From assembly GCF_021202945.1 (NCBI RefSeq), contig NZ_JAJOYR010000002.1:795825-859824 (forward strand): DNA of 64,000 nucleotides. Reading direction: 5' to 3'. This stretch comes from Stenotrophomonas sp. SY1. GTDB lineage: Bacteria; Pseudomonadota; Gammaproteobacteria; Xanthomonadales; Xanthomonadaceae. The notes under the pieces are model-generated. The model was not told the DNA's origin. It saw only the letters and a program-made list of their open reading frames with translations, and searched no databases. The first letter of the stretch is position 1. Every line of letters starts with the position of its first letter. Shown one piece after another: positions 3,524 to 26,308 of this stretch. Position numbers and translations under genes: made by a program.

Positions 3524-6466
3524 TCAGAACGCCAACCGGTTCCGCCCTTCGCGTTTGGCCCGGTACAACTGGTGATCCGCGGCAGCCAGCAGGGTCCGCA
3601 CCGTATCCTGTCCGGGCTTCACCGCCGCCAGACCAATGCTGGCGGTAATGACAACATCCGGGTCCACTTCGTCGATGCGCAACCGCCCCAGGCGAATGCG
3701 CAACCCTTGCAGCAGCGGCACCGCCTCCTCCAGTTGCAGGCCACGCAGCACGACCAGGAATTCCTCACCGCCATGACGTGAGACGAACTGCCTGCTGCCC
3801 AACTGCAAGCGCAGCAGGCCAGCCACGTCACGCAATACCTGATCGCCCGCCTCGTGGCCGTAACGGTCATTGACCTGCTTGAAGTGGTCGATGTCCACCA
3901 ACGCCACGCACAACGAGGTGCCCTGCTCCAACGCCTGGCGCAATGCCTGCTGCAGATGTTCATCGCCAGCGCGACGGTTGGGCAGCCCGGTCAGCGCGTC
4001 ATGCATGGCCATATACTCCAGCCGCGTCAGCAGACTGTCGCGCTCGGCGCCCGCCTGTTCCAGCGCGCGGTTCTTCTCGCTCAGCTCCTGGGTACGCACG
4101 CTGATCTCGGTATTGAGCTGGCGCTGCCGACGTCGATAGCTGGCCGTATGCCAGGTCATCAGCAGCAGCACGCCGGCAACCAGCAGGCCAGCCGCCAACA
4201 ACTGCACCCACAGCCGCTGCCAATACGGTGCCGCGATATCCAGGGTGATGCCGGCCTCGCCTACGCGCTGGCGGTTGTCCCAGTCCAGCGGCAACGCCAT
4301 CGCCTGCACCCGCATGCGGTAACTGCCCGGCGGCAAGTTGGTGTACACCGCTTCAGTGCGGCTGCCCGCATCCACCCAGTCGGCGTCGAAGCCTTCCATC
4401 CGGTAGCGGTAGCGCATCTTGTCCGGGGCACGGAAACCCAGCCCGGCATATGCCACCGCGATACGTTCCACCTCGGCCGGCAACGCGTATACCGCCCGCA
4501 TCGGTTGTGGGCTGCCGTCGATCTCCACGCTCTCGATGGCCAGGGGTGCCTTGCGCTGTTGCACATTGCCATCGGCACGATCCGGATCAATCAACGCCAG
4601 ACCACCGGCGGTGGGAAACCACAGCAGCCCTTCCTGGGTCAGCCAGCCCGCCGGCGATGACGCGCCATTGCCCTGGCTGCTGGGCATCCCGTCGTTGTGG
4701 TCGATCACTTCCACCGACAGATGGCTGCGGGCTCCGGCCGCAACCGACACCAGATCGGTGCGTTGCAGGCGGAACACACCTTGGTTGCTGGACACCCACA
4801 GATTGCCGTTGCCGTCATCAATGATGCGGAACAACTTGTCCCGTGGCAGACCATTGCGATGGTCGAACACAGTGAAGTCCAGGCCGCGCTTGCGCAGCAG
4901 GCCATGGTCGGTGGCTATCCACAGATCTCCATTTTCATCACCCAGGAAATCGAATACCCCGCGCGCGGGGAAATCACGTCCCGGCCGCCAGCTCTGCAGC
5001 CGGCCGTTGCTTTCCATCGATGCCATGCCGCCATTGGTGCCGATCCAGAGCTGGCCAGCGGGATCTCGGTACAGGCTGTGGACCATGGCGCCCGGCAGGC
5101 CATCGTCGGTGCCGTAATGCTGCACGTCACCGTCACGCAGCCGGAACAGGCCGTCGTCGCCGCCCACCCACAGGGTGCGGTCTCCGTCGGCCAGCAGCGC
5201 GCGCACCAGCGGTTGCCTGCTGCCCGGCAGCAACACCTGCTGCTGCACCTTGCCGTTGCCGTCCAGCCGGAACACGCCCTGGTTGTAGGTGCCGGCCCAG
5301 ACCGAGCCCGGCGTGGTGGCCAATGCCAGCACGGACGCATCCGGGCCGTTGCCGGACTTCAGCCGGGTCGTCACAAGCCGATTGCCCACCAACCGGTCCA
5401 GGCCAGCAGAATGGCCCACCCACACGGTGCCATCCTCGGACTGGATCACCGCGCGCGCATAGTTCGACCCCAGGCCGTCCTCGATGGTCAGGCCGCGCGC
5501 AGCGCCCTCGTCAACGCGAAACAGACCGTCGGTGCTGCCGGCCCAGACCAGGCCCTCGCGATCGATCATCAGGGCCGGGCTGACCCGCCCGGGAATGGCG
5601 ATGCGCTCGCCCACGCCTTCGGCATAGCGCTCCAGCCGGCCATCGGAAAAGCTCAACCACAACGCACCGCGGGTATCACGGCGCACCGCATCCACGCGTT
5701 CCCCCGGATACAGATGCTGCTGGCGTCCGCCGGCATGCCACCATTGGATGCCGTCGTCGGTGGCGATGATCCAGCCACCATCGCCGTCATTGACCAGATC
5801 ACGCACCGACTGCCCGGCCGTTGCCGCCCAAGGCTGCAGACGTCCCTTGTGCACGCGGTAAACACCCTGCAGGCCGGCTACCAGCAAGGCACCGTCACGA
5901 TCACTGCGCAGCGCGGTGATCGCCGCGTTGGGCAACCCCAGCGTGGCACCGACATCAAGCAACTGCCCGGTCGGCAACTGCCGCAGCAGCCGCTCGCCGG
6001 AAGCAACCCACAGCACGCCGGCCTGATCGCGCAGCATCGCGATCACCGGTAGATGACGACTCTCCGGCCCGCCCAGCGCCTGCCAGTTGCCACGGTGGTA
6101 GCGATAGATGCCGTCGGAAACCGTGCCAAACAGCATCGCGCCATCGGCTTCGGCCAGGATGCTCTCGATGCCGGACAGTTCCACCCCCGGGGTGTTCTGC
6201 CGGTCGAATACGGTGAAGCCACGGCTGTTGAAGCGCACCGCGCCTTCCCAGGTTCCCACCCAGATGAAGCCGTCGCTGCCCTGCGCCACCGACTGCACCA
6301 GGTTGTGCGGGAGCCCCTGTTGCATCCCCCAGCCCGCCACCGTGTGACGGGCGGCCTGGGCCGGCAACAGCATCAGCAGCAGCCACAGCAACAGGCAGCA
6401 CTGCAGCGCCCCTCGCAACCAGCGGGTGGGTGGATCAATGAAAGATTGGCCTGGGCGTTCCAGCAA
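3524..6466 (-). CDS. Membrane diguanylate cyclase with two-component-regulator propeller
   Basis: A roughly 980-residue sensor that probably makes cyclic di-GMP. After a hydrophobic N-terminal segment (LLLWLLLMLLPAQA, likely an uncleaved anchor or signal) there are many WVG/WIG/WVS propeller repeats of the Reg_prop type, then a Y_Y_Y-like region (YRYRMEGFDADWV, NLPPGSYRMRVQA). A membrane helix lies at about 752-772, followed by a short coiled coil and a GGDEF domain with the signature GGEEF at 899. The inhibitory RxxD site is absent: the four residues at that position read GSRQ. The TTG at 6466 follows GGGAGG at good spacing. An ATG at 6544 is in frame but lies inside an inverted repeat. The ligand is unknown; the periplasmic propeller suggests sensing of carbohydrates or other external cues. 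Confidence 0.88.
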   Translation of the reverse strand: MLERPGQSFIDPPTRWLRGALQCCLLLWLLLMLLPAQAARHTVAGWGMQQGLPHNLVQSVAQGSDGFIWVGTWEGAVRFNSRGFTVFDRQNTPGVELSGIESILAEADGAMLFGTVSDGIYRYHRGNWQALGGPESRHLPVIAMLRDQAGVLWVASGERLLRQLPTGQLLDVGATLGLPNAAITALRSDRDGALLVAGLQGVYRVHKGRLQPWAATAGQSVRDLVNDGDGGWIIATDDGIQWWHAGGRQQHLYPGERVDAVRRDTRGALWLSFSDGRLERYAEGVGERIAIPGRVSPALMIDREGLVWAGSTDGLFRVDEGAARGLTIEDGLGSNYARAVIQSEDGTVWVGHSAGLDRLVGNRLVTTRLKSGNGPDASVLALATTPGSVWAGTYNQGVFRLDGNGKVQQQVLLPGSRQPLVRALLADGDRTLWVGGDDGLFRLRDGDVQHYGTDDGLPGAMVHSLYRDPAGQLWIGTNGGMASMESNGRLQSWRPGRDFPARGVFDFLGDENGDLWIATDHGLLRKRGLDFTVFDHRNGLPRDKLFRIIDDGNGNLWVSSNQGVFRLQRTDLVSVAAGARSHLSVEVIDHNDGMPSSQGNGASSPAGWLTQEGLLWFPTAGGLALIDPDRADGNVQQRKAPLAIESVEIDGSPQPMRAVYALPAEVERIAVAYAGLGFRAPDKMRYRYRMEGFDADWVDAGSRTEAVYTNLPPGSYRMRVQAMALPLDWDNRQRVGEAGITLDIAAPYWQRLWVQLLAAGLLVAGVLLLMTWHTASYRRRQRQLNTEISVRTQELSEKNRALEQAGAERDSLLTRLEYMAMHDALTGLPNRRAGDEHLQQALRQALEQGTSLCVALVDIDHFKQVNDRYGHEAGDQVLRDVAGLLRLQLGSRQFVSRHGGEEFLVVLRGLQLEEAVPLLQGLRIRLGRLRIDEVDPDVVITASIGLAAVKPGQDTVRTLLAAADHQLYRAKREGRNRLAF

Positions 6467-6529
6467 ACCCGCCTCCCGCAGGTCGTGACCGGCCAGCGGC
6501 CGGCGGCCAAATCTAGCATTCCTGCGTGA

Positions 6530-6554
6530 GAACCGCCCCTTCACGGGGCGGTTC
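6530..6554. terminator. Inverted repeat between smeP and the cyclase gene
   Basis: GAACCGCCCC pairs with GGGGCGGTTC across a five-base loop. It lies just beyond the smeP stop and may end smeOP transcription, although no T-tract follows. Confidence 0.4.
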
Positions 6555-6569
6555 AGCCTACTGCCGTCC

Positions 6570-9500
6570 TCAGTGGGTGGCTTCGTCCGGACGCACCCTG
6601 AACCAGGCCGCGTACAGCGCCGGCAGGAACACCAGGGTCAGCACCGTCCCGACGATCAGGCCACCCATGATCGCGATCGCCATCGAGCCGTAGAAGGCGC
6701 TGCGCGAGAGCGGGATCATCGCCAGCACCGCCGCCAGCGCGGTCAGCACGATCGGCCGGAAGCGGCGCACGGTGGCGTCGATGATCGCGTGCCAGCGGTC
6801 ATGTCCGGCATCGATATCCTGCTGGATCTGGTCGATCAGGATCACCGAGTTGCGCATGATCATGCCGGCCAGGGCAATCGTGCCCAGCATCGCCACGAAG
6901 CCGAACGGCGCGCGGAAGATCAGCAGGAACAAGGTGGCGCCGATGATGCCCAGCGGCGCGGTGACGAACACCATCGCCGCCCGCGAGAAGCTGCGCAGCT
7001 GCAGCATCAGCAGCGTCGCCACCACCACCAGGAACAACGGCATGCCGGCATTGATCGAGTTCTGGCCGCGCGCCGAGTCCTCCACCGTGCCGCCGGTTTC
7101 CAGCAGGTAACCATCCGGCAGCTGGTCACGGATATCCGCAAGCGTCGGCAGGATCTGCTCGACCACCCCTACCGGCAACATGCTGTCGCCGATATCGGCG
7201 CGCACGGTGACGGTCGGCAGGCGGTCGCGATGCCAGATGATGCCGTCCTCGAACACGTGTTCCAGGCGTGCGATCTGCGACAACGACACCGGCTTGCCGC
7301 TGGCCGTCGGCACCGCCAGGCTGCCGAGCATGTCCAGACGCGCGCGTTCGTCATCCGGGCCACGCAGCAACATGCCGATCTGGCGGTTGCCTTCGCGGTA
7401 GGTGCTCACGCTGGTACCCGACAGCGAACTGCTCAGGAACTGCGCCAGCTGCGCGCTGCTCACGCCCAGTGCGCGGGCGCGATCCTGGTCCACGACCAGG
7501 CGCACCACCTTGCTCGGCTCGCTCCAGTTGAGGTTGACGTTGGTGGTGTGCGGGTTCTCGCGGACCTTGTCGGCCACCTGCCGGGCAATGGCCTGTACCC
7601 GCTCGATGTGCTCGCCGGAAACGCGGAACTGCACCGGGTAACCGACCGGCGGGCCGTTCTCCAGACGGGTCACGCGCACCTGCACATCGGAGAACTTGGG
7701 CACCACTTCCTTCAGCAGCCACTCGCGCACTTCCTCACGCGATTCGATGTCCTCGGCCAGCACCACGTACTGGGCGAAGTTGGTCGCCGGCAGCTGCTGG
7801 TCCAGTGGCAGATAGAAGCGCGGCGAGCCGCTGCCGACATAGCCGACGTAGTTGCTGATGCCCTTGCGCTGCTTGAGCAGCGCCTCGAACTTGTGCGCCT
7901 GTGCCTGGGTGGCGGTCAACGAGGCACCCTCGGCCAGTTCGATATCCACCATCAGCTCCGGCCGGGTCGAATCCGGGAAGAACTGCTGCGGCACGAAGCG
8001 GAACATCACCAGCGAGAACACGAACAGGCCGATGGTGGCGAAGATCACCAGCCAACGACGTCGCAGGCAGGCGTCCAGGAAGCCACGGAAACGCTGATAG
8101 AACGCACTCTTGTACGGGTCATGGTCATGCGCCAGCTGCTTGGGTGCGATCACATTGGCCAGCGCCGGATTGCGGTCGGCCCAACGCAGACGCAGCGCGT
8201 ACCAGCGCCCGGCAAGACTGCCCGGCTTGGGCGGCTGCGGGTTGTGCAGGTCCGGCAGCATCTTGTCGCCCAGGTACGGGATGAACAGCACCGCGGCGAT
8301 CCACGACACCACCAGCGCGATCGTCACCACCTGGAACAACGAACGCGTGTACTCACCGGTGCTCGATGCGGCGGTTGCGATCGGCAGAAAGCCGGCAGCA
8401 GTGATCAGCGTACCGGTCAACATCGGGAACGCGGTCGATTCCCAGGCAAAGCTGGCCGCGCGCAACCGGTCGTAACCCTGTTCCATCTTGGTGGCCATCA
8501 TTTCCACCGCGATGATCGCGTCATCCACCAGCAGGCCCAGCGCCAGTACCAGCGCACCGAGTGAAATCTTGTGCAGGCCGATGTCGAACTGGTGCATGAC
8601 GAAGAACGTCATCGCCAGCACCAGCGGAATCGACACCGCCACCACCAGGCCGGTGCGGAAGCCCAGAGAGAAGAAGCTCACCAGCAGCACGATCACCACC
8701 GCCTCGGTGAGCACCTTGACGAACTCGCCCACCGAATCCTTCACCGCATGCGGCTGGTCGGACACCTTGCGCAGCTGCATGCCGGCCGGCAGCGTCTTCT
8801 GCAACTGGGCGAACTGGGTATCCAGCGTCTTGCCCAGCTTGATGATGTCACCGCCGCTCTTCATCGCCACCGCGATGCCGATGGCATCCTCGCCCATGAA
8901 GCGCATCTTTGCCGAGGCCGGATCGGCAAACCCACGCTTCACTTCGGCGATATCGCCCAGGCGCACCGTGCGGTCACCGGCGCGAATCGGGAAGTCGCGG
9001 ATCTCCTGCACCGAGTTGAACTGGCCGGTGATGCGCAGCTGCACGCGGTCGCTGGCGGTCTCGAACCAGCTCGCCGGCGCCATCGCGTTCTGCTCCGACA
9101 GCGCCTGCTGCACCTGCTGCATCGACACGCCCAGCGTGGCCAGCTTGGTGTTGGACAGTTCAATCCACACCTTCTCGTCCTGCAGGCCGAGCAGATCCAC
9201 CTTGCCCACGTCATCCACGCGCTGCAGTTCCAGCTGGATGCGGTCGGCGTAGTCGCGCATCAGCGCATAGTCGAAACCCTTGCCGGTCAGTGCGTAGATG
9301 TTGCCGAAGGTATCGCCGAACTCGTCATTGAAGAACGGCCCGACCACTTCCGAGGGCAACTGCGAGCGGATATCGCCCACCTTCTTGCGTACCTGGTAGA
9401 ACAGCTCCGGCACATCCTTGGAGTGCATCGAATCGCGCGCCATGAAGATCACCTGCGATTCGCCCGGCCGTGAGTACGACTGGATGAACTCGAATTCGCC

Positions 9501-9731
9501 GGTGTTCATCAGCGCCTTTTCGATCGGCTCGGTGACCTGCCTGGAAACCTGCTCGGCAGTCGCACCGGGCCAGGCGGTCTGCACCACCATCGCCTTGAAG
9601 GTGAACGGCGGATCTTCGGACTGCCCCAGGTGCTTGTACGACCAGGCACCGATGACCGCCATGGCGATCATCATGAACAGCACCAGCGGGCGATTGCTCA
9701 ACGCCCATTCGGAGAGATTGAAGCGGCGCAC
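6570..9731 (-). CDS. smeP: RND efflux pump inner-membrane transporter SmeP
   Basis: The proton-driven inner-membrane pump of the SmeOP-TolCSm tripartite system, described in S. maltophilia as exporting several antibiotics, detergents and uncouplers. The 1053 residues show the two-fold RND plan: N-terminal helix, large periplasmic loop, helix bundle, second loop, second bundle. The proton-relay pair DD is in transmembrane helix 4 (GLLVDDAIIAVE). In helix 10 the lysine of AcrB is replaced by arginine (GMIMRNSVIL). The GTG start at 9731 lies three bases after the smeO stop, with GGGAA upstream, so the two genes are co-transcribed. Assignment to SmeP rests on family features plus the conserved order smeP-smeO / smeRo-pcm-tolC; exact substrates cannot be read from sequence. 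Confidence 0.9.
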   Translation of the reverse strand: MRRFNLSEWALSNRPLVLFMMIAMAVIGAWSYKHLGQSEDPPFTFKAMVVQTAWPGATAEQVSRQVTEPIEKALMNTGEFEFIQSYSRPGESQVIFMARDSMHSKDVPELFYQVRKKVGDIRSQLPSEVVGPFFNDEFGDTFGNIYALTGKGFDYALMRDYADRIQLELQRVDDVGKVDLLGLQDEKVWIELSNTKLATLGVSMQQVQQALSEQNAMAPASWFETASDRVQLRITGQFNSVQEIRDFPIRAGDRTVRLGDIAEVKRGFADPASAKMRFMGEDAIGIAVAMKSGGDIIKLGKTLDTQFAQLQKTLPAGMQLRKVSDQPHAVKDSVGEFVKVLTEAVVIVLLVSFFSLGFRTGLVVAVSIPLVLAMTFFVMHQFDIGLHKISLGALVLALGLLVDDAIIAVEMMATKMEQGYDRLRAASFAWESTAFPMLTGTLITAAGFLPIATAASSTGEYTRSLFQVVTIALVVSWIAAVLFIPYLGDKMLPDLHNPQPPKPGSLAGRWYALRLRWADRNPALANVIAPKQLAHDHDPYKSAFYQRFRGFLDACLRRRWLVIFATIGLFVFSLVMFRFVPQQFFPDSTRPELMVDIELAEGASLTATQAQAHKFEALLKQRKGISNYVGYVGSGSPRFYLPLDQQLPATNFAQYVVLAEDIESREEVREWLLKEVVPKFSDVQVRVTRLENGPPVGYPVQFRVSGEHIERVQAIARQVADKVRENPHTTNVNLNWSEPSKVVRLVVDQDRARALGVSSAQLAQFLSSSLSGTSVSTYREGNRQIGMLLRGPDDERARLDMLGSLAVPTASGKPVSLSQIARLEHVFEDGIIWHRDRLPTVTVRADIGDSMLPVGVVEQILPTLADIRDQLPDGYLLETGGTVEDSARGQNSINAGMPLFLVVVATLLMLQLRSFSRAAMVFVTAPLGIIGATLFLLIFRAPFGFVAMLGTIALAGMIMRNSVILIDQIQQDIDAGHDRWHAIIDATVRRFRPIVLTALAAVLAMIPLSRSAFYGSMAIAIMGGLIVGTVLTLVFLPALYAAWFRVRPDEATH

Positions 9732-9734
9732 GCG

Positions 9735-10859
9735 TCATTCCCCTTTCTTTGCGGCGGAAGCCGGTGCAAGCACCGGACGATTGGCGCGGTCCACCGCCGT
9801 CACCTGCTGACCTTCGCGCAGCAGATGGCCACCGGCAGCGACCACCCACTCGTCACCCTTCAGGCCCTGCAGCACCGGCACCGTCTCGGCACCGTAGGTG
9901 CCCAGCGTCACCGCCCGTGCCTGCAACGTGCCGTTGGCGGGGTTGACCACCCACACGCTGGCCTGCTGCCCCTGCTTGCCGGGTTGCACGGCAGCCAGCG
10001 GCACACTCAATGCATTGCCCTTGCCGTGGCTGATGAAGACCCGCGCACTCTGCCCCAACTCCACCTCATTGAGCGCCTCGGGCGCCAGGCTGATCCGCGC
10101 GGCGTAGGTGCGCGTCTGCGGATCGGCGGCCGCAGCGATTTCGCGGATGCTGCCCGGCAGGTGCTTGCCGGCCTGGTTCCACAACTCCACTTCAACGGCT
10201 TGGCCAACGCTGAAATCACGGATGTCGCTTTCCGGCAAGGCGATTGCCACTTCACGCGCGCCATCGGCGGCCAGCGTGTAGATGGTCTGGCCGGCCGCGA
10301 CCACCTGACCGGCTTCGGCCTCGCGGCTTGCGATCATGCCCGCTTCCGGCGCATGCAGCTGCGCGTAGTCGGCCTGGTTGCGATTGACATCAAGAGTGGC
10401 ACGGGCTGCATCGGCCTGGCCTTGTGCCGCCTTCAACGCGGCGGTCTGCGCATCCAATGCCGAACGGCTGACCAGCTGTTGCGCGGCCAGCGCGGCATAA
10501 CGCTTGTGCTCGTCACGCGCACGCACCAGGTCTGCCTCGGCGGCGGCGTACTGCGCCTGTGCCGCACGCGCCTGCAGTTCGAAGTCGGCCGCATCCAGCA
10601 CCGCCAACAACTGGCCCTTGCTCACGCGCTGGCCGGCATCCACTTCGCGGCGCAGCAGTTTTCCGCCGACGCGGAACGACAACGCCGCTTCCTCACGGGC
10701 GCGGACCTCGCCCGGATACGCCGTCACGCTCTTCCCGATACCCCCAGCAGGATGCTCCACGAACACCGGGACAGCATAGGCGGGAGCGGTTTCAGTCTTG
10801 CCACAAGCTGCAAGCAGGGCCAGCAACAGGCCACAGCCAATCCATCGGACGTTGGTCAT
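9735..10859 (-). CDS. smeO: RND periplasmic adaptor lipoprotein SmeO
   Basis: The membrane-fusion protein that joins the RND pump to TolC. Its 374 residues begin with a lipoprotein signal (LLALLAAC, lipid-modified Cys at 19). Then come the beta-strand and lipoyl half-motif (SFRVGGKLLRREVDAGQRV), a long alanine-rich coiled-coil hairpin (about 95-160), the second lipoyl half (YAQLHAPEAGMIASREAEAG), a beta-barrel and a membrane-proximal domain. It is the first gene of the smeOP operon and is transcribed divergently from smeRo, with a 108-bp shared regulatory region. The C-terminal tail is Ala/Lys rich. The family assignment is firm; the name follows synteny. Confidence 0.9.
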   Translation of the reverse strand: MTNVRWIGCGLLLALLAACGKTETAPAYAVPVFVEHPAGGIGKSVTAYPGEVRAREEAALSFRVGGKLLRREVDAGQRVSKGQLLAVLDAADFELQARAAQAQYAAAEADLVRARDEHKRYAALAAQQLVSRSALDAQTAALKAAQGQADAARATLDVNRNQADYAQLHAPEAGMIASREAEAGQVVAAGQTIYTLAADGAREVAIALPESDIRDFSVGQAVEVELWNQAGKHLPGSIREIAAAADPQTRTYAARISLAPEALNEVELGQSARVFISHGKGNALSVPLAAVQPGKQGQQASVWVVNPANGTLQARAVTLGTYGAETVPVLQGLKGDEWVVAAGGHLLREGQQVTAVDRANRPVLAPASAAKKGE

Positions 10860-12449: not shown

Positions 12450-13793
12450 ATGATCCGCCGATCCCTCACCCTTGCGCTGGCAGTCGCCCTGGCCCCGCTG
12501 ACGACCCACGCCGCCGACCTGTTGCAGGTCTATGAAATGGCCCGCAACGGTGACCCGCAGCTGTCCGCCGCCGAGTCCAACCGGCTCTACACCAAGGAAG
12601 GCCAGGTGCAGGCACGCGCGGCATTGCTGCCGCAGGTCAACGGTGAGGCATCGCTGACCCGCTCGCGCGTCGAGTACGACGGCATCAGCGGCACCAGCAC
12701 CAGCAAGGACCGCACCTACCGCGTGACCGGCGGCCAGACCCTGTTCAACTGGGGCCAGTTCGCCAACCTGCGCGCGCAGCGTGACATCAGCAAGGCTGCC
12801 GACTTCACCCTGGATTCGGCCAACGACGACCTGATCGTCCGCACCTCCACCACCTACTTCAACGTGCTGGTGGGCATCGAATCGCTGACCGCCGCCGAGA
12901 CCAACGAAGCTGCGGCCAAGAAGCAGTTCGACTACGCCGACAAGCGCCTGGAAGTGGGCCTGGCACCGATCACCGACGTGCATGAAGCCCGCGCCCAGTA
13001 CGACCAGGCCCGCGCCGACACCATCCTGGCCCGCAACGCGCTGGAAGATGCCTACCAGGCACTGACCGAACTGACCGGCCAGCCGGTGCGCGACGTGCGT
13101 GGCCTGCCGGTGGATTTCCGCCCCGAAGTGCCGGCCAACCGCAGCAGCGTCGATCAGCTGGTGACCGATGCGGTGTCGCGCAATCCGGATCTGAAGGCGC
13201 AGGAACTGAAGGTCAGCGCAGCGGAATCGAGCGTGTCGGCCGCCCGCGGTGGCCACTACCCGACTCTAGAACTGGGCGGCAGCTGGGGCAAGAACGCACG
13301 CTGGGGCGACAGCGTCGGCGGCACCTCCAACACCCCGGACAGCACCACCAACTCGATCGGGCTGACCCTCAACGTGCCGATCTTCGCCGGTGGTGCCACC
13401 CAGTCGCAGGTCCGCCAGGCGTTGGCCCAGCGTGATATCGCGCAGGACACCTTCGAGCAGCAGAAGCGCGCACTGGACCGCAACACCCGCAACGCTTACC
13501 AGAACCTGGTTGCCGGCGTCAGCGAAGTGGAAGCCCGTCGCCTGGCCGTGGTTTCGGCACAGAGCGCGTATGACGCGTCGCAGGTGGGCCTGGAAGTGGG
13601 TACCCGCACCGTGCTGGATCTGGTGCAGAACCAGAGGACGCTGTTCCAGGCGCAGCTGGAATATGCACGCTCGCGCTACAACTTCCTGCTCAGCCGCCTT
13701 CAGTTGAGCCAGGCCGTGGGTGATCTGGAAATCACCGAAGTGCAGGACATCAACCGTCTGCTGACGGTCGACGCAGCCGCAAAACTGCAGTAA
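12450..13793 (+). CDS. tolC: TolC-family outer-membrane efflux channel
   Basis: The trimeric outer-membrane exit duct used by SmeOP and probably by other pumps and type I exporters of the cell, possibly including the C39 ABC exporter at 19.3-21.5 kb. The 447-residue protein has a cleavable signal peptide ending near THAADL. Two homologous OEP halves follow, with long helical stretches, for example LLPQVNGEAS in the first half and the matching YPTLELGGSW / AQRDIAQDTFEQQKRALD in the second. AAGGAAGC provides a ribosome binding site. It ends the smeRo-pcm-tolC operon and is followed by a strong hairpin. Confidence 0.93.
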   Translation: MIRRSLTLALAVALAPLTTHAADLLQVYEMARNGDPQLSAAESNRLYTKEGQVQARAALLPQVNGEASLTRSRVEYDGISGTSTSKDRTYRVTGGQTLFNWGQFANLRAQRDISKAADFTLDSANDDLIVRTSTTYFNVLVGIESLTAAETNEAAAKKQFDYADKRLEVGLAPITDVHEARAQYDQARADTILARNALEDAYQALTELTGQPVRDVRGLPVDFRPEVPANRSSVDQLVTDAVSRNPDLKAQELKVSAAESSVSAARGGHYPTLELGGSWGKNARWGDSVGGTSNTPDSTTNSIGLTLNVPIFAGGATQSQVRQALAQRDIAQDTFEQQKRALDRNTRNAYQNLVAGVSEVEARRLAVVSAQSAYDASQVGLEVGTRTVLDLVQNQRTLFQAQLEYARSRYNFLLSRLQLSQAVGDLEITEVQDINRLLTVDAAAKLQ

Positions 13794-19338: not shown

Positions 19339-21456
19339 TCAGACCGCAGCGGGTACCGGGGTCGGTGCTTCGCTGACAGGCACCTCGGCCTGGGGCCGCA
19401 GCTCCTGGACTACCCTGCCCTGCTCCATCACCAGCACCCGGTCAGCGCTGGCAATGGTTTCCGGGCGATGAGCGATGATCAGCCGGGTCAAACGCAGCTG
19501 GCGTACCGCGTCATTGACCAAACGCTCGCTCATCACGTCCAGATGGCTGGTGGCCTCGTCCAGGAACAGCAGCTTCGGCTGCCGGTACAGGGCGCGCGCC
19601 AGGATGATCCGCTGCTTCTGCCCCCCGGACAGCGAGCTGCCCATGTCGCCGATCAGGCCGTGATAGCCCATCGGCATGGCCTGGATATCCTCGTGCACCG
19701 CAGCCAGCCGCGCGGCCATCTCCACCCGCGCCAGGTCGAAATCCGGATCGAAGAATCCGATGTTGTCGGCAATGCTGCCGGCGAACAGCTGGTCGTCCTG
19801 CATCACCGCGCCGACGATGGCGCGCACGTTCCGCGCCCCCAGCCGGTGCAGGTCATGCCCACCGATGCGGATGCTGCCGCCACCGGGCTGCAACAGGCCC
19901 AGCAGCAGTTTCAACAATGTCGTCTTGCCGCACCCGGACGCCCCGATCACCGCCACCGACTCGCCCGGCGCGATGCTGAAACTGCAGCCGCGCAGCACCC
20001 AGGGTTCGCCCTCGGCATAGCGGAAGGAAAGATTCTCGACTTCGATACGGAAGTCTTCCGGTGGCCGCGCCTCGATGTTGCCCGCCTCCTGTTCCGGTTC
20101 GGCCAGCACGATGTCGGCAAGGCGCTCCCCGTGCAGCCGCAACATGCGGAACTCCAGCCATTTGTCGATCAGCCCGGACATGCGGCCGGCAAACTGATCC
20201 TTGTAGGCCAGGTAGGCAATCAACATGCCCACCGAAAACACGTTGTCCAGCGCAAGCACCGCACCGATCCAGATCACCGCGATACGTTCGATGCCAAACA
20301 GCAGCTGGCTGGCACCGTTGAAACCCAGTCCCAGATGCGCCAGCCTCACTTCGCGGTTGATGGTGTCCACCATCAGGTTGTCGTAGGTGCTGCGTCGTTG
20401 TGACTCCTCGCCAGCAACTTTCAGGCTCTGCATGCCACGCAGGGATTCGAGCAGATGCGTCTGCTGTCGCGCCGAAGCCACCAGCTGCTGTTCGGTGCCA
20501 TCACGCAGAGGCCGCCAGGCAATGGCGCGGATCAAGGTGTACAAGGCCACCGCCAGCAGGGTCACCAGCGCCAGCTTCCAGCTGTAGACCAGCATCAGCG
20601 CCAGCGTCAGCACCGCCATCAAGCCATCGATAAGGGCCTCGACGAAACTGGTGGTCAAGGTTTTCTGGATGGCCTGCACCGATGACAGCCGCGAGGTGAT
20701 ATCACCCAGATTGCGCTTCTCGAAGAAATCCAGCGGCAACCGCAACAGGTGCGCGAACACATTGCCCATCCACTGCAATCCCAGCCGCGATGACAGGTGC
20801 ACCACCGCAGCGCCACGCAGCACACCGATCCCCACCTGCAACAACAACGCCAGCCCGAAGCCGAGACCGAGCACGGTGAGCAGATCACGATCGGCCGAAA
20901 CCAGCACCTGATCGACCACCCACTGCATCAGGAACGGCGCCAGTACCACGAACACCTGCAGGGCCAGCGACAACAGCAGCAGCTGCGCCAAGGCCCGCCA
21001 CAGGCCACGCACCGGCCCGGTCAACTGCCGCGCGGTGATCGAAGGTGCGGCCTTGCGTGGAACGAAGGTGGCAGCTGGCGACAGCTCCAGTGCAACGCCG
21101 GTGAAGTGATCGGACACTTCGGCAGCGCTCATCGTGCGCTCGCCCAAGGCGGGGTCCACGATCACCACCTTGGACGTACCCACCTTGCGCAGCACCACGA
21201 AGTGGTTCAGATCCCAATGCAGGATGCACGGCAGTGACAGTTTGCCCAGGTCGTCCATGTCCAGCCGCAATGCCCGCGTGGAGAACCCCAATTGCTGCGC
21301 GATGTTGATCAGCTGGCTGAGCTTTGCCCCTTTCAGCGACAGCGGAAAGCGCCTGCGCAGTTCGGCCAGGCCGATGCGCAATCCGTGCGCGTCGGCCACC
21401 ATTGCCAGAGAGGCCAGGCCACATTCGGCCGCCTCGGATTGAATGATCGTCTTCAT
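19339..21456 (-). CDS. Peptidase-containing (C39) ABC exporter
   Basis: A 705-residue bacteriocin/signal-peptide exporter of the CvaB/RaxB type. The N-terminal C39 peptidase has an intact triad: Cys12 in SEAAECGLA with Gln6 as oxyanion residue, His85 in LNHFVVL, and Asp101 in IVDPAL. It would cut leaders after a double glycine while exporting the peptide. Six membrane helices follow (about 155-430). The ATPase has GASGCGKTT (Walker A), LSGGQKQR (signature) and LLFLDEATSHLD (Walker B), with the switch His in IIAHRPETI. It lies 36 bp downstream of an M16 peptidase gene and in the same run as an HlyD adaptor. No cargo gene is recognised nearby. Confidence 0.93.
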   Translation of the reverse strand: MKTIIQSEAAECGLASLAMVADAHGLRIGLAELRRRFPLSLKGAKLSQLINIAQQLGFSTRALRLDMDDLGKLSLPCILHWDLNHFVVLRKVGTSKVVIVDPALGERTMSAAEVSDHFTGVALELSPAATFVPRKAAPSITARQLTGPVRGLWRALAQLLLLSLALQVFVVLAPFLMQWVVDQVLVSADRDLLTVLGLGFGLALLLQVGIGVLRGAAVVHLSSRLGLQWMGNVFAHLLRLPLDFFEKRNLGDITSRLSSVQAIQKTLTTSFVEALIDGLMAVLTLALMLVYSWKLALVTLLAVALYTLIRAIAWRPLRDGTEQQLVASARQQTHLLESLRGMQSLKVAGEESQRRSTYDNLMVDTINREVRLAHLGLGFNGASQLLFGIERIAVIWIGAVLALDNVFSVGMLIAYLAYKDQFAGRMSGLIDKWLEFRMLRLHGERLADIVLAEPEQEAGNIEARPPEDFRIEVENLSFRYAEGEPWVLRGCSFSIAPGESVAVIGASGCGKTTLLKLLLGLLQPGGGSIRIGGHDLHRLGARNVRAIVGAVMQDDQLFAGSIADNIGFFDPDFDLARVEMAARLAAVHEDIQAMPMGYHGLIGDMGSSLSGGQKQRIILARALYRQPKLLFLDEATSHLDVMSERLVNDAVRQLRLTRLIIAHRPETIASADRVLVMEQGRVVQELRPQAEVPVSEAPTPVPAAV

Positions 21457-21492
21457 GACAAGGGGCGGCCGTTGGCCGCCCCCGTTTCTCCC

Positions 21493-24243
21493 TTACTTGA
21501 AATCACCCGCCACAAACACGCTCAGGCGCTCCGGCTTGAGATGTTTGACGATGGCGGCATTGACCTGGGCCACGGTCAGCGCGCGATACGCCGCATCGCG
21601 GTCGATCTCGAACTGTATGCTGCGCCCGTAATACAGCTGATCGCCCAATATCCCTGCCACCGTTCCATCGCTGGCACGGGACTGCTCACGGGCGACCAGA
21701 CGTGCGCTCACTGCGTCGCGCAGTTCCTGCTCGGTCACTCCGTCGCGTACCAACCGGACCAGCTCCTCGCGCAGTGCCGCTTCAACCTTGGCCACGTTCT
21801 CCGGTGCGGCAATCGCCTGAAGCGTGATGTTGCCGGCGTCGTCACGACCCACCCGGCTTTCGTCCGCGCTCAAACCGGCACCCACGCCGTAGCTCAGGCC
21901 TTCCTTCTGGCGGATACGCTCGGCCAGGCGGGACGTGAGCGGATCGCCACCCAGAATGACCACCGCGATGTTCAACGCAGCGAAATCGGCGTCGGCCAGA
22001 TTCAGCGACAGGTTCTGCCGCGCCAGCACGATTGCGTTGGGCTTGTCCGGCGTGCTGAAGGTCGCGCGCTTGGCAGCCACGTCGCGATACTGCGTGGCAA
22101 TCGGTGCATAGGCCACAGGCGACTTCCATTCAGCAAACAGTGCCTGCAGCTGCGCCTTGAGCGCTTCGGCATCGAAGTCCCCGACCACGGATATCTCGCC
22201 CTCCGCTGTCCCATAGAAATCACGATGGAAGGCACGCAACTCTTCCACCTTGAGTGCCTTGAGCTTTGCCAGCGATTGGTCGAAGGACTCCACATGCAAC
22301 GGATGGCCCGCCGGCCACGGATCGAAGTGCTGCGCCAGGCCCATTGATGCCAATGCGCCGGGTTCAGTGCGCTGGAACTCGGTACCGGTAATCGCCTGCA
22401 GACGCAGTTGCTCGAACTGGTCGGCAGGGAACGCCGGGCTGCGTAGCACCTGCGCGGCCAGCGCCAGCGCTTCCGCCAAGGTGTCACGCTTGCCCAACAG
22501 CTTGATCTGCCCACTCTGCAGGCCTCCGCTGACCTGCACCTGGGTGCCCAGGGCGTCGAAGCGGGAGGCAATCTGTGCCAGGTCCATCTGCGTGCTGCCC
22601 ATCATCAGCATCGGCCCCACCAGTGCACCCGCATCGGCGCGCCCGGTAATGGACTGCTCGCTGCCAAAGCGGAACGTGGCATCCAGCACCACCGTTTTTC
22701 CGCGGGTCTTCTTCGGCAGCAATGACACCTTCAGGCTGTTGCCGATCGTGAAGCTCTGCGTGCGTTCGGCGATATTCTCCAACGTCGCTTCAAATGCTTC
22801 GCCCGCATCCACTGCGGCTTTGCCGGCGTACCCGTCGACCAGGCTGGCGACCGCGGGCGCCACCGGAATCTGCGCACGGTCGGGCGTGGCGGTCGGCACG
22901 AAGCGCCCCAGAGTGCGATTGCTGGGTTTCAGATAAGCGGCCGCCACGCGATTGACGTCCGCCGCGCTCACCTTGGCGATGGCATCCCGCTGCACGAACA
23001 GCAGGCGCCAATCCCCCGCAGCCTGGTACTCGGAAAGCGCCATCGCGACTGCATTGACGTCGCTGGTCAACAGTTCAAGGCCGTTGGCGATGCGTTGTTT
23101 GGCCGCAGCAACCTCGGCTTCGGTCACCGGCTGCGCCGCGATGCCTTCGGCCTGTTTGAGCAATTCGACCTCGGCGCGGGCACTGTCGCCGTCCTTGGGC
23201 AAGGCGCTGATCAGGGTAAACAGGCCCGGATCGTGCAGGCTCTCACCCGAAGCGCCGGCAAACGCCGCCAGCTTGGTTTCCAGCAATGCCTTGTACAAAC
23301 GCCCGTTCGGGTTGTCGCCCAACACATTGGCCAGCACCGCCAAGGCCGCGCTGTCGGCCTGCGCAAGTGCGGGCACGTGATAGCTGGCGGCCACCAGGGC
23401 CAGTTCGCTGCTGCGACGGACGGTGACTTCGCGTTCGCCGTCCTGGGTGGGTTCAACGGTATGGAAGGCAGGCAACACCCGCGCCGGCTTCTTCAATGGC
23501 CCGAAGTGCGCTGCTACCCGCTGCAGCACCTTGGAGCTGTCGATGCGGCCGGCCACCACCAGCAAAGCGTTGTCCGGCTGATACCAGGTGCGATAGAAGC
23601 CCTGCAGGTTCTGCACCGGCACGTTCTCCACATCCGAGCGTGCGCCGATGGGCATGTTGGCGTAGTTGTGCCAATCGAAGGCCACCGAACGCATGCGCTT
23701 CATCAGCACGCCGGCCGGGTTGTTGTCGCCGGCCTCCATTTCGTTGCGGACCACCGTCATTTCGCTGTCCAGATCCGCCTTGGCGATCCTGGAGTTGACC
23801 ATGCGGTCAGCCTCCATCCCCAGCAGCCAGTCCAGCGTGTCGTCGCTGGCCGGGAAGGAGGCAAAGTAATTGGTGCGATCCAGTGACGTGGACGCGTTCT
23901 TGCTCACGCCACGCTTCTGCATCTGGCCGGGAATATCCGGGTGTGTCGGCGTGCCCTTGAACAGCATGTGCTCAAGCAGATGCGCCATACCGGTCTCGCC
24001 GTAGTTCTCGTGCATCGAACCGACGCCGTAAACCAGGTTGACCGTCACCGTCGGTTTGCTGGCATCGGGAAACAACAGCACACGCATGCCGTTGGCCAGA
24101 CGATATTCGCAGATGCCTTCGACGCAGGGACCGGGTGCAACCACCCTTGCTGGCTCCCGCCCCCCTTCCTTGGCATCGACGACCGATACAAGGGCCAATG
24201 AGAGCATCACAGCAAGCGCACCGGACGACAGCTTCTTTCGCAT
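21493..24243 (-). CDS. Secreted M16-family zinc metallopeptidase
   Basis: A 916-residue tandem M16 peptidase with a Sec signal peptide (MRKKLSSGALAVMLSLALVSVVDA), so it should act in the periplasm or outer envelope. The inverted zinc motif HxxEH is intact (HLLEH, 88-92), with the distal acidic stretch RNEMEAGDNN. The second M16 domain keeps the R/Y substrate-binding region (RLAERIRQKEGLSYGVGAGLS) but lacks a second HxxEH, as usual for fused pairs. I chose the ATG at 24243, preceded by AAGGA; an ATG at 24258 is five codons upstream. Its place between the HlyD adaptor and the C39 ABC exporter suggests a role in maturing or degrading the exported peptide. Confidence 0.9.
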   Translation of the reverse strand: MRKKLSSGALAVMLSLALVSVVDAKEGGREPARVVAPGPCVEGICEYRLANGMRVLLFPDASKPTVTVNLVYGVGSMHENYGETGMAHLLEHMLFKGTPTHPDIPGQMQKRGVSKNASTSLDRTNYFASFPASDDTLDWLLGMEADRMVNSRIAKADLDSEMTVVRNEMEAGDNNPAGVLMKRMRSVAFDWHNYANMPIGARSDVENVPVQNLQGFYRTWYQPDNALLVVAGRIDSSKVLQRVAAHFGPLKKPARVLPAFHTVEPTQDGEREVTVRRSSELALVAASYHVPALAQADSAALAVLANVLGDNPNGRLYKALLETKLAAFAGASGESLHDPGLFTLISALPKDGDSARAEVELLKQAEGIAAQPVTEAEVAAAKQRIANGLELLTSDVNAVAMALSEYQAAGDWRLLFVQRDAIAKVSAADVNRVAAAYLKPSNRTLGRFVPTATPDRAQIPVAPAVASLVDGYAGKAAVDAGEAFEATLENIAERTQSFTIGNSLKVSLLPKKTRGKTVVLDATFRFGSEQSITGRADAGALVGPMLMMGSTQMDLAQIASRFDALGTQVQVSGGLQSGQIKLLGKRDTLAEALALAAQVLRSPAFPADQFEQLRLQAITGTEFQRTEPGALASMGLAQHFDPWPAGHPLHVESFDQSLAKLKALKVEELRAFHRDFYGTAEGEISVVGDFDAEALKAQLQALFAEWKSPVAYAPIATQYRDVAAKRATFSTPDKPNAIVLARQNLSLNLADADFAALNIAVVILGGDPLTSRLAERIRQKEGLSYGVGAGLSADESRVGRDDAGNITLQAIAAPENVAKVEAALREELVRLVRDGVTEQELRDAVSARLVAREQSRASDGTVAGILGDQLYYGRSIQFEIDRDAAYRALTVAQVNAAIVKHLKPERLSVFVAGDFK

Positions 24244-24390
24244 TCCTTTTCCTTTCATGTGTTTGATGCAGCCACCGGATGGCTGTACGAATACGGAGAG
24301 AATCCGCATGCAACATTCCATTGTTTCGGGAAGGTGCCGCACGTGCGGCGCGACACCCGGCGTTCGGTCAACGCATCCAGCAATGCCTCA

Positions 24391-25698
24391 TCATGCTCCC
24401 GACAGTCTCCCCTGCAACGAGTACAGCGGCTCGAACGCCCATTCGATCAAGCGCCGGCTCTCCCCCATGATATCCGCTTGCAGCAGCATGCCAGGCCGGA
24501 GCGGTTCCGGTCTTCCGTATGCATTGACGAACTGCCGCTCCAGTTCCACCGTGACGCGGTAGAAGGATTCACCTTGCTGGTTCCGCTGGACCGGCAACGC
24601 CATGGCGTCGATCTCCACCGCGCCCAACGCATTACGACTGATGCGGGAGATACGGCCCAGCTGATGGCCGAACTTCTGGTATGGAAATGCGTTGTAGCGC
24701 AGCAGGACCTTGTCGCCAGGAGCCATGAAGCCGACGGCATGGCTGGGCACCAGCACTTCGGCCTCCAGGCGGCCATCCCCCGGCAGCAGGCTCATCAACG
24801 GCTGGCCGGCTTTTACTGCCTGTCCGCGCTTGACCCCTTGCGAGGAGATCATGCCAGCCGTCGGCGCCTTCACCAGCAGCGCCCCTTCCTCGTGCGCCCG
24901 CACTTGTTCCTGCTCCAGTTTCGCCAGTGCCTGCAGGTAGTCCGCATCGTTGCCAAGACGCTGTGCCGGTTGCTCGCGCTGGGCCTGGTGCAACTGTGCG
25001 ACCAGGCGTCGTGTTGCCGTGGCCTCACGCTGCAATGCCTGCTTTTGTCCTGTGTACTCCAGTACTGCGACCTGCTGTTGCTTGATTTGCAAAACGCTCA
25101 CGTACTGTCCGTCCTCAAGACGACGCAGACGTTCAAGAGTTTCGTTGGCAATGGTGATCTGCTGTTGTCGTGTCGCCACTTCAGACTCGAGCTGCTGCAG
25201 TTCCAGGCGCGCTGCGACCAGTTGGCTGGTGACACCTTCACCCTGAGCGGCCAGTTGATCATCAAACGCTCGCCGCGAAGCAAGCAGTCCATCCTTGCGC
25301 TGTTGCAGCGCAAGCCCAAGCGCTGCCTGCGTATCTCCACCTTCGAGCGTCGCCTTCGGCACACTGACCAATGCCAGAGTGGCGCCGGCGCGGACACGTT
25401 CGCCCTCCGGCACGTTCAACCACGACACCAGACCAGTTGCCGGGGCCGGGACGGTGATCAGCCCCTGTGTCGGCACCAGCTGCCCGATCACGGAGGAACG
25501 CCGCGTGTAACTTCCAAGGCAAAGAAACAACGCAATTACGATGGCGCATGCCACGGCCACCACGGTCAGCAACCAGGTGCGAAGCGGTTGTATCAGCGAT
25601 ATCCCTCCAAACCGATGGGTTCGCCCGGCGATCAGCACTTCGTCGCGGAACAGGGGTTGTGACACGGGCAGGACCAGGTTGGGGCGAAGTGGACGCAA
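24391..25698 (-). CDS. HlyD/CvaA-type periplasmic adaptor
   Basis: The membrane-fusion component of a type I peptide exporter, about 435 residues. It starts with LFRDEVLIAGRTHRFGGISLIQPL, typical of CvaA/RaxA proteins, then one transmembrane helix (about 42-62), a lipoyl-like half-motif near GQLVPTQGLITVPAPATG, a long coiled coil (about 130-270), the second half (LLVKAPTAGMISSQGVKRGQAV) and a C-terminal beta-barrel. The start is uncertain: TTG at 25698 is the longest, GTG at 25665 is closer to the conserved part, and neither has a strong ribosome binding site. It is the first recognised gene of the operon with the M16 peptidase (147-bp gap) and the C39 ABC exporter. Confidence 0.88.
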   Translation of the reverse strand: MRPLRPNLVLPVSQPLFRDEVLIAGRTHRFGGISLIQPLRTWLLTVVAVACAIVIALFLCLGSYTRRSSVIGQLVPTQGLITVPAPATGLVSWLNVPEGERVRAGATLALVSVPKATLEGGDTQAALGLALQQRKDGLLASRRAFDDQLAAQGEGVTSQLVAARLELQQLESEVATRQQQITIANETLERLRRLEDGQYVSVLQIKQQQVAVLEYTGQKQALQREATATRRLVAQLHQAQREQPAQRLGNDADYLQALAKLEQEQVRAHEEGALLVKAPTAGMISSQGVKRGQAVKAGQPLMSLLPGDGRLEAEVLVPSHAVGFMAPGDKVLLRYNAFPYQKFGHQLGRISRISRNALGAVEIDAMALPVQRNQQGESFYRVTVELERQFVNAYGRPEPLRPGMLLQADIMGESRRLIEWAFEPLYSLQGRLSGA

Positions 25699-25806
25699 TG
25701 TGGCCGATGCCTCGGACTACCTTCAATGCCCTGATGACGCCACTTCTGCTGACCTTCTCACCTCAAGCCAATCAAGAATGGTTCCCATGATTTCTTGTCA
25801 GCAATC

Positions 25807-25874
25807 CTGACCAGAAGGGTCAGTTTCAGTGTCAGTACTGGCGGATCCTGTGCAACAATCTCTAAATGTTGCAC
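25807..25874. promoter_or_regulatory. Dyad repeats between XRE and exporter genes
   Basis: Two inverted repeats lie in the 244-bp divergent gap: CTGACC-N5-GGTCAG (25807-25823) and GTGCAACA-N9-TGTTGCAC (25850-25874, perfect 8-bp arms). Both are plausible operators for the neighbouring XRE regulator, controlling itself and the hlyD-M16-ABC operon. The rest of the gap shows no clear gene. Confidence 0.5.
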
Positions 25875-25942
25875 TTGCTCACAAGCCTCTCTTGAGAGCG
25901 CCACCTCATCGCTTATCGCCGTAACCTCAAGGAGGAGACTGG

Positions 25943-26308
25943 ATGCCAAATCATCTGGCAAATCGCATCCGCAGGGCCCGTAGAAGAAAGGGCATGACCC
26001 AGGCCGAACTGGCATCGCAACTCAAGGTAAGCCGTAGTGCGGTGGGCAACTGGGAGAGCCCCACCGGCATCATGCCCAGCACCACCCGCATGATCACCAT
26101 CGCCCTGGTGACCGATGTGTCGTTTGAATGGCTGGCTACCGGCCGGCACGGACTGGACGTGGTCCCGGCCAACGCCCCCCTCAGCGCCGTGGAGATGGTG
26201 GATGACCCGCAGGAGCGCAGGTTGCTGATGGCCTATCGCACCTGCCGTGCGGCCACGCGCAAGCTGGTGCTGCAGATCGTCGAAGGTCAGCGACTTTCGC
26301 GAACGTGA
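25943..26308 (+). CDS. XRE-family transcriptional regulator
   Basis: A 121-residue DNA-binding protein. The helix-turn-helix occupies about residues 5-60 (RIRRARRRKGMTQAELASQLKVSRSAVGNWE, then FEWLATGRHG). The C-terminal part (DDPQERRLLMAYRTCRAATRKLVLQIVEG) is a short helical tail that could mediate dimerisation. A good AAGGAGGAG site precedes the ATG. It is divergent from the peptide-export operon and separated from it by dyad repeats, so local regulation of that operon is likely but inferred. It is followed by a strong terminator. Confidence 0.88.
   Translation: MPNHLANRIRRARRRKGMTQAELASQLKVSRSAVGNWESPTGIMPSTTRMITIALVTDVSFEWLATGRHGLDVVPANAPLSAVEMVDDPQERRLLMAYRTCRAATRKLVLQIVEGQRLSRT

Follow-up and report, generated by a model that had tools for sequence, protein, structure and literature searches.

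C39-peptidase ABC exporters are usually read as signposts of an adjacent peptide gene, and the operon described here raises the question of what such an exporter does where no peptide gene adjoins it. The operon lies within a 64,000-nucleotide stretch of the Stenotrophomonas sp. SY1 genome (the window; genome G000 in the comparisons below) and belongs to a clade that keeps the exporter by selection without a peptide. Our preferred reading, to which we assign a probability of roughly one half, is that the operon is a microcin exporter lacking cargo in cis that now exports double-glycine (GG) leader peptides encoded in trans, with an M16 peptidase acting in periplasmic clean-up.

An intact exporter operon

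The minus-strand operon consists only of hlyD, an M16 peptidase gene and a C39-ABC gene, with spacers of 147 bp between hlyD and M16 and 36 bp between M16 and C39-ABC, and diverges from an XRE gene. The C39-ABC gene (19339–21456, minus strand) encodes a 705-residue C39-peptidase ABC exporter (PCAT) with Pfam matches to Peptidase_C39 (1.1e-35), ABC_membrane (1.6e-36) and ABC_tran (2.9e-32). Residues Q6, C12, H85 and D101 of the C39 domain are intact, as are the Walker A (GASGCGKTT), LSGGQ and Walker B motifs, bearing out the first-pass annotation, which had described a complete exporter of the GG-peptide kind with its ORFs in these places. The nearest full-length solved relatives are PCAT1, ComA and HlyB. 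The presence of Cys12 sets the protein apart from HlyB-type T1SS exporters with a degenerate C39-like domain, and its score of 505 bits against the curated TIGR03796 cut-off of 853 sets it apart from NHLP/NHLM bacteriocin exporters. Because the C39 domain is 74% identical to that of a second exporter locus in the same genome (hereafter the sister locus) and 78–80% identical to those of operons in two other genera (genomes G447 and G295), it is expected to cleave canonical GG leaders.

A search with PF03412 identified three C39 domains in G000, belonging to the focal exporter, a second exporter at C1:1.35 Mb and a stand-alone protein. The last, of approximately 258 residues (L041; G000 C1:1720523–1720927), is present in most Stenotrophomonas genomes searched.

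The adaptor gene hlyD (24391–25665, minus strand; HlyD_3, 2.5e-15, Pfam) is open to a TTG at 25698, and probably begins instead at GTG 25665 (VSQPLFRDEV). Both its N-terminal SQPLFRDEV segment and its tip motif, RLRRLEDGQYVS, are intact; the latter follows the RxxxLxxxxxxS pattern that binds TolC in related adaptors (PMC3391258). The focal HlyD proteins form one clade (92/95). A pseudogene reading of the G075 hlyD, prompted by an in-frame TGA, was rejected since this codon lies upstream of the probable start.

Search for cargo

No GG-leader precursor had been recognised beside the exporter in the first-pass annotation, and the searches described here agree. A leader scan found no GG-leader ORF of 30–110 residues in the entire window, and six-frame reading found none in the operon gaps, among them the hlyD–M16 gap (24244–24390, minus strand), which is among the cargo positions in relatives and here holds neither a GG-leader ORF nor a cargo remnant. 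Sensitive tblastn searches of the focal gaps, using 20 related peptides and candidate immunity proteins as queries, gave best scores at noise level. On these three approaches we reject cargo within the gaps; the operon contains no further gene, and so no immunity gene.

Over the whole genome, the leader pattern matched exactly twice, with no match in a reversed control, and both matches are small GG peptides of the sister locus. A looser pattern gave 12 matches, only the sister pair of which corresponds to a small ORF with a near start. Among the one-mismatch matches, those read, all of them assigned to a locus, sit inside larger frames or overlap nothing precursor-like; by their nature, these leader patterns miss unusual leaders. 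Cargo encoded elsewhere, as proposed earlier, remains the best guess for the focal exporter, for which the two sister-locus peptides would be the only candidates found in G000.

The sister locus (L040:6518–11956; G000 C1:1.349–1.355 Mb) is complete. It carries XRE (44% identity to the focal protein), hlyD (57%), two GG peptides, a 135-residue membrane protein and C39-ABC (76%), with XRE, hlyD and C39-ABC in the same order as in the focal operon; it differs in possessing the peptides and the membrane protein and in lacking M16. The peptides are 57–58 residues long (MRELSMCEMENVDGG... and ...IRELSFAEINEVDGG...). One weakly resembles Bacteriocin_IIc (E 0.0014), and both show weak likeness to the lactobin/cerein class IIb model, just under its cut-off. 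The locus is a probable two-peptide bacteriocin. These peptides have an exporter of their own, for which reason the focal exporter may be redundant for them, a point against export in trans.

Relatives that kept or lost their peptides

The first-pass annotation had suggested comparing related genomes for a conserved short gene near hlyD. In two other genera, M16+C39 operons carry paired GG-leader peptides in cis: the order in G295 is hlyD, M16, two 53-residue GG peptides with a CPBP protein, and ABC, while that in G447 is hlyD, two GG/GA peptides (68 and 62 residues), a 52-residue membrane protein, M16 and ABC. A frameshifted peptide lies between a split hlyD and ABC in G002, with M16 behind. 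The chromosomal site of the window is common to eight species (G000, G018, G075, G010, G052, G056, G076 and G087), in the order MaeB, XRE, hlyD, M16, [ABC], zinc finger, glycosyltransferase; none of the eight carries a GG peptide there. Throughout the comparison each species is represented by a single genome, and several of the genomes are drafts. GG-leader ORFs were present in 16 of 19 other exporter loci versus none of four focal-type loci with ABC (p 0.004, the loci not being independent), and were absent from all 24 loci without a complete exporter.

These sequence comparisons show descent from a two-peptide GG-leader microcin locus comprising XRE, HlyD, C39-ABC and a recruited M16, which lost its precursor and immunity genes in the common ancestor of one clade of Stenotrophomonas. 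We propose that the exporter still works in the window species, G018 and G075: its C39 domain would cleave the GG leaders of peptides encoded elsewhere, and the ABC/HlyD pair would export these, with the housekeeping TolC as exit and XRE as the controlling regulator. G075 fits export in trans, as its sole C39-ABC is the focal orthologue, while two sites not linked to each other encode three small GG peptides without a local exporter (L147:8274–8453; L148:8756–8896 and 8959–9123). One of these orphans is Thr/Asn-rich (KTTTTTTTNNPDGSTTTTVTK).

G018 argues against this reading, as it keeps the whole operon intact, yet three leader patterns detected no canonical GG peptide anywhere in its genome. 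An exporter retained without a detectable GG peptide could instead serve cargo in trans with a non-canonical leader, common to G000, G018 and G075. The 78–80% identity of the C39 domain to those of G447 and G295, which act beside canonical leaders, makes a very different leader unexpected, however, and we regard this alternative as improbable.

Selection and stages of loss

Rates were estimated by the Nei–Gojobori method, with dS reaching 1.8 in some hlyD comparisons. Among G000, G018 and G075, dN/dS was 0.07–0.11 for ABC, 0.07–0.11 for M16, 0.13–0.16 for hlyD and 0.07 for XRE. Because these values are similar to those of the flanking genes (0.06–0.11), the focal exporter is not drifting. The three species are separated by dS of 0.5–0.8, and stops and frameshifts are absent.

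Other members of the lineage display loss, which also counts against export in trans. In G010, the C39-ABC (L046:3733–5781) has Cys replaced by Ser, a rewritten His motif and LSAGQ in place of LSGGQ, with dN/dS of 0.41 and a branch length of 1.44 in a frame that is still open; the last position of the TolC-tip motif of its HlyD is also changed. This protein is probably a peptidase-dead or failing exporter. ABC is deleted in G052, G056, G076 and G087, where PF03412 matches only the stand-alone C39 protein, plus, in G056, a weak match in a 739-residue frame. The hlyD–ABC pair is truncated in G001, and only an M16 remnant persists in G079. The dead C39 with its long branch, together with these deletions and truncations, could indicate that the window operon is a relic in early decay, its cargo lost and its machinery not yet eroded. 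This explanation is already disfavoured by the selection data, since at dS of 0.5–0.8 an ABC dN/dS of about 0.1 equals that of the flanking genes and the three intact species show no stops or frameshifts; we consider it quite improbable.

The four ABC-less species kept the rest of the operon under purifying selection, with dN/dS of 0.10–0.11 for hlyD and 0.08 for M16. Their HlyD proteins adjoin M16 without a cognate ABC (L057:9050–10204, L142:10350–11603, L143:9426–10664 and L144:8867–10051). A burst of change on their stem (length 1.12) accompanies loss of the LFRxE...LGxISLxQP N-terminal segment and of the TolC-tip motif, with the periplasmic body retained in the alignment. These features, and an M16 that is intact in all Stenotrophomonas genomes with a close orthologue, the exporter-less ones included, suit a cargo-free peptide-handling or resistance module, the main rival explanation. 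In it, M16, with HlyD as its periplasmic partner, would degrade peptides that are foreign or stray, and the exporter would either expel them or be dispensable; the ABC-less sister clade seems already to have taken this course. A periplasmic module would not need an ABC protein in the window species that is constrained, GG-cleaving site included, to the same degree as its flanks, however, and this explanation appears unlikely for the window operon. Possibly, the clade as a whole records a bacteriocin secretion locus converting to such a cargo-free periplasmic module, with the peptides lost first, then the C39 site and then the whole exporter, while M16 and a stripped HlyD were kept by purifying selection. 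The window operon would then be an intermediate whose exporter had already taken up a new job, a tentative view that we hold to be doubtful. Whichever applies, the natural stages of loss in the clade provide an opening to ask what cargo-less C39 exporters do.

The M16 peptidase

The M16 gene (21493–24243, minus strand; start ATG 24243) encodes a 916-residue zinc peptidase of fused active and inactive halves, with Pfam matches to Peptidase_M16_C (3.9e-59, two stretches) and M16 (1.6e-24). As previously annotated, its HLLEH motif is intact, and it is accompanied by a downstream Glu (in NEME) and a signal-like N-terminal segment, MRKKLSSGALAVMLSLALVSVVDA. The HxxEH zinc motif, downstream Glu and two M16 halves identify it as an M16B zinc peptidase, and its top structural relative is the zinc peptidase 3amj/3ami (E 2.6e-50).

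Orthologues of at least 74% identity occur in 11 of 91 Stenotrophomonas genomes and are intact in all 11. Homologues of 48–71% identity are common over the family, and all 18 examined stand alone without an exporter. As the exporter-linked M16s form a single clade (100/100) nested among the stand-alone ones, M16 appears to have been recruited once into the operon; the lone M16 of G051 falls inside this clade, and therefore later losses occurred. The ABC tree places the sister locus, which lacks M16, inside the M16-linked clade, and on that tree M16 linkage was consequently gained or lost more than once. An M16 recruited once into microcin operons is a candidate self-protection or maturation factor.

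The earlier suggestion that M16 performs a second processing step finds no support, as across the family it is a stand-alone periplasmic peptidase, and it has been retained in species without exporter or cargo. Substrates of a T1SS do not pass through the periplasm, and maturation is therefore a less likely role for M16 than clean-up; the persistence of M16 without the exporter likewise agrees with clean-up over maturation. In our preferred reading of export in trans, M16 would degrade peptides that reach the periplasm, as self-protection or clean-up.

Regulation and the exit channel

The XRE-family regulator gene (25943–26308, plus strand; HTH_3, 1.3e-11, Pfam) diverges from hlyD across a dyad, as first described. 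The dyad, CTGACCAGAAGGGTCAG (25807–25823), is a perfect 6-5-6 repeat, CTGACC-N5-GGTCAG, and a probable operator; it is the sole exact copy in the window, and its form CTGACCAAAAAGGTCAG is conserved in G018 and G075. The operator was also considered as a guide to distant cargo and discarded, the other exact CTGACC-N5-GGTCAG copies in the genomes being coding sequence.

The first-pass annotation had nominated a TolC at 12450 for the exit step. The gene at 12450–13793 does encode TolC (TIGR01844, 408 bits), but relatives from which the exporter has disappeared still carry it at its site, and for that reason it is not dedicated to the operon. Near this housekeeping TolC, at 3524–10859, lie three long minus-strand ORFs (1006, 1053 and 374 residues) that by size and order resemble an RND efflux set.

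Comparison with known systems

Class II microcin loci have a five-component definition (PMC9746304), of which the focal operon shows three features and lacks two. Like class II microcin secretion loci such as that of microcin V (CvaA/CvaB with TolC), the focal operon has a C39-ABC with a Cys/His/Asp triad, an HlyD and a TolC in the genome, and homologous loci in relatives include GG/GA-leader peptides together with candidate immunity genes. Unlike them, it has neither a GG/GA-leader precursor in the locus nor a cognate immunity gene next to one, and it possesses M16 and its own XRE. By this definition it is not a microcin locus, though we propose that it works like a microcin exporter. The literature searched described neither M16-linked microcin exporters nor this cargo-free clade.

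Protease-associated import by FusC/PqqL (PMC6793856) similarly involves a large periplasmic M16 whose gene shares an operon with genes for membrane transport. Those systems pair M16 with a TonB-dependent receptor, whereas the partners here are a C39 exporter and HlyD, with no such receptor in the operon, and the focal M16 matches PqqL/FusC in sequence only over the N-terminal quarter. RaxX–RaxSTAB of Xanthomonas, in the same bacterial family, likewise exports a GG-leader peptide through a C39 exporter and HlyD; in contrast to it, the focal operon has no raxX and no sulfotransferase gene. Class II microcin candidates have been reported in Xanthomonas (PMC13174018).

The comparison also uncovered many GG peptides of Stenotrophomonas. 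Beyond this genus, GG-leader ORFs lie near C39 exporters in alphaproteobacterial MAGs (L004:3962–4201 and L009:15227–15406), with cores rich in Lys, Gly and Ser (MRDLKVEELEHVYGAGGKGKYCKGG... and MRDLNIDELEQVYGAGSKG...).
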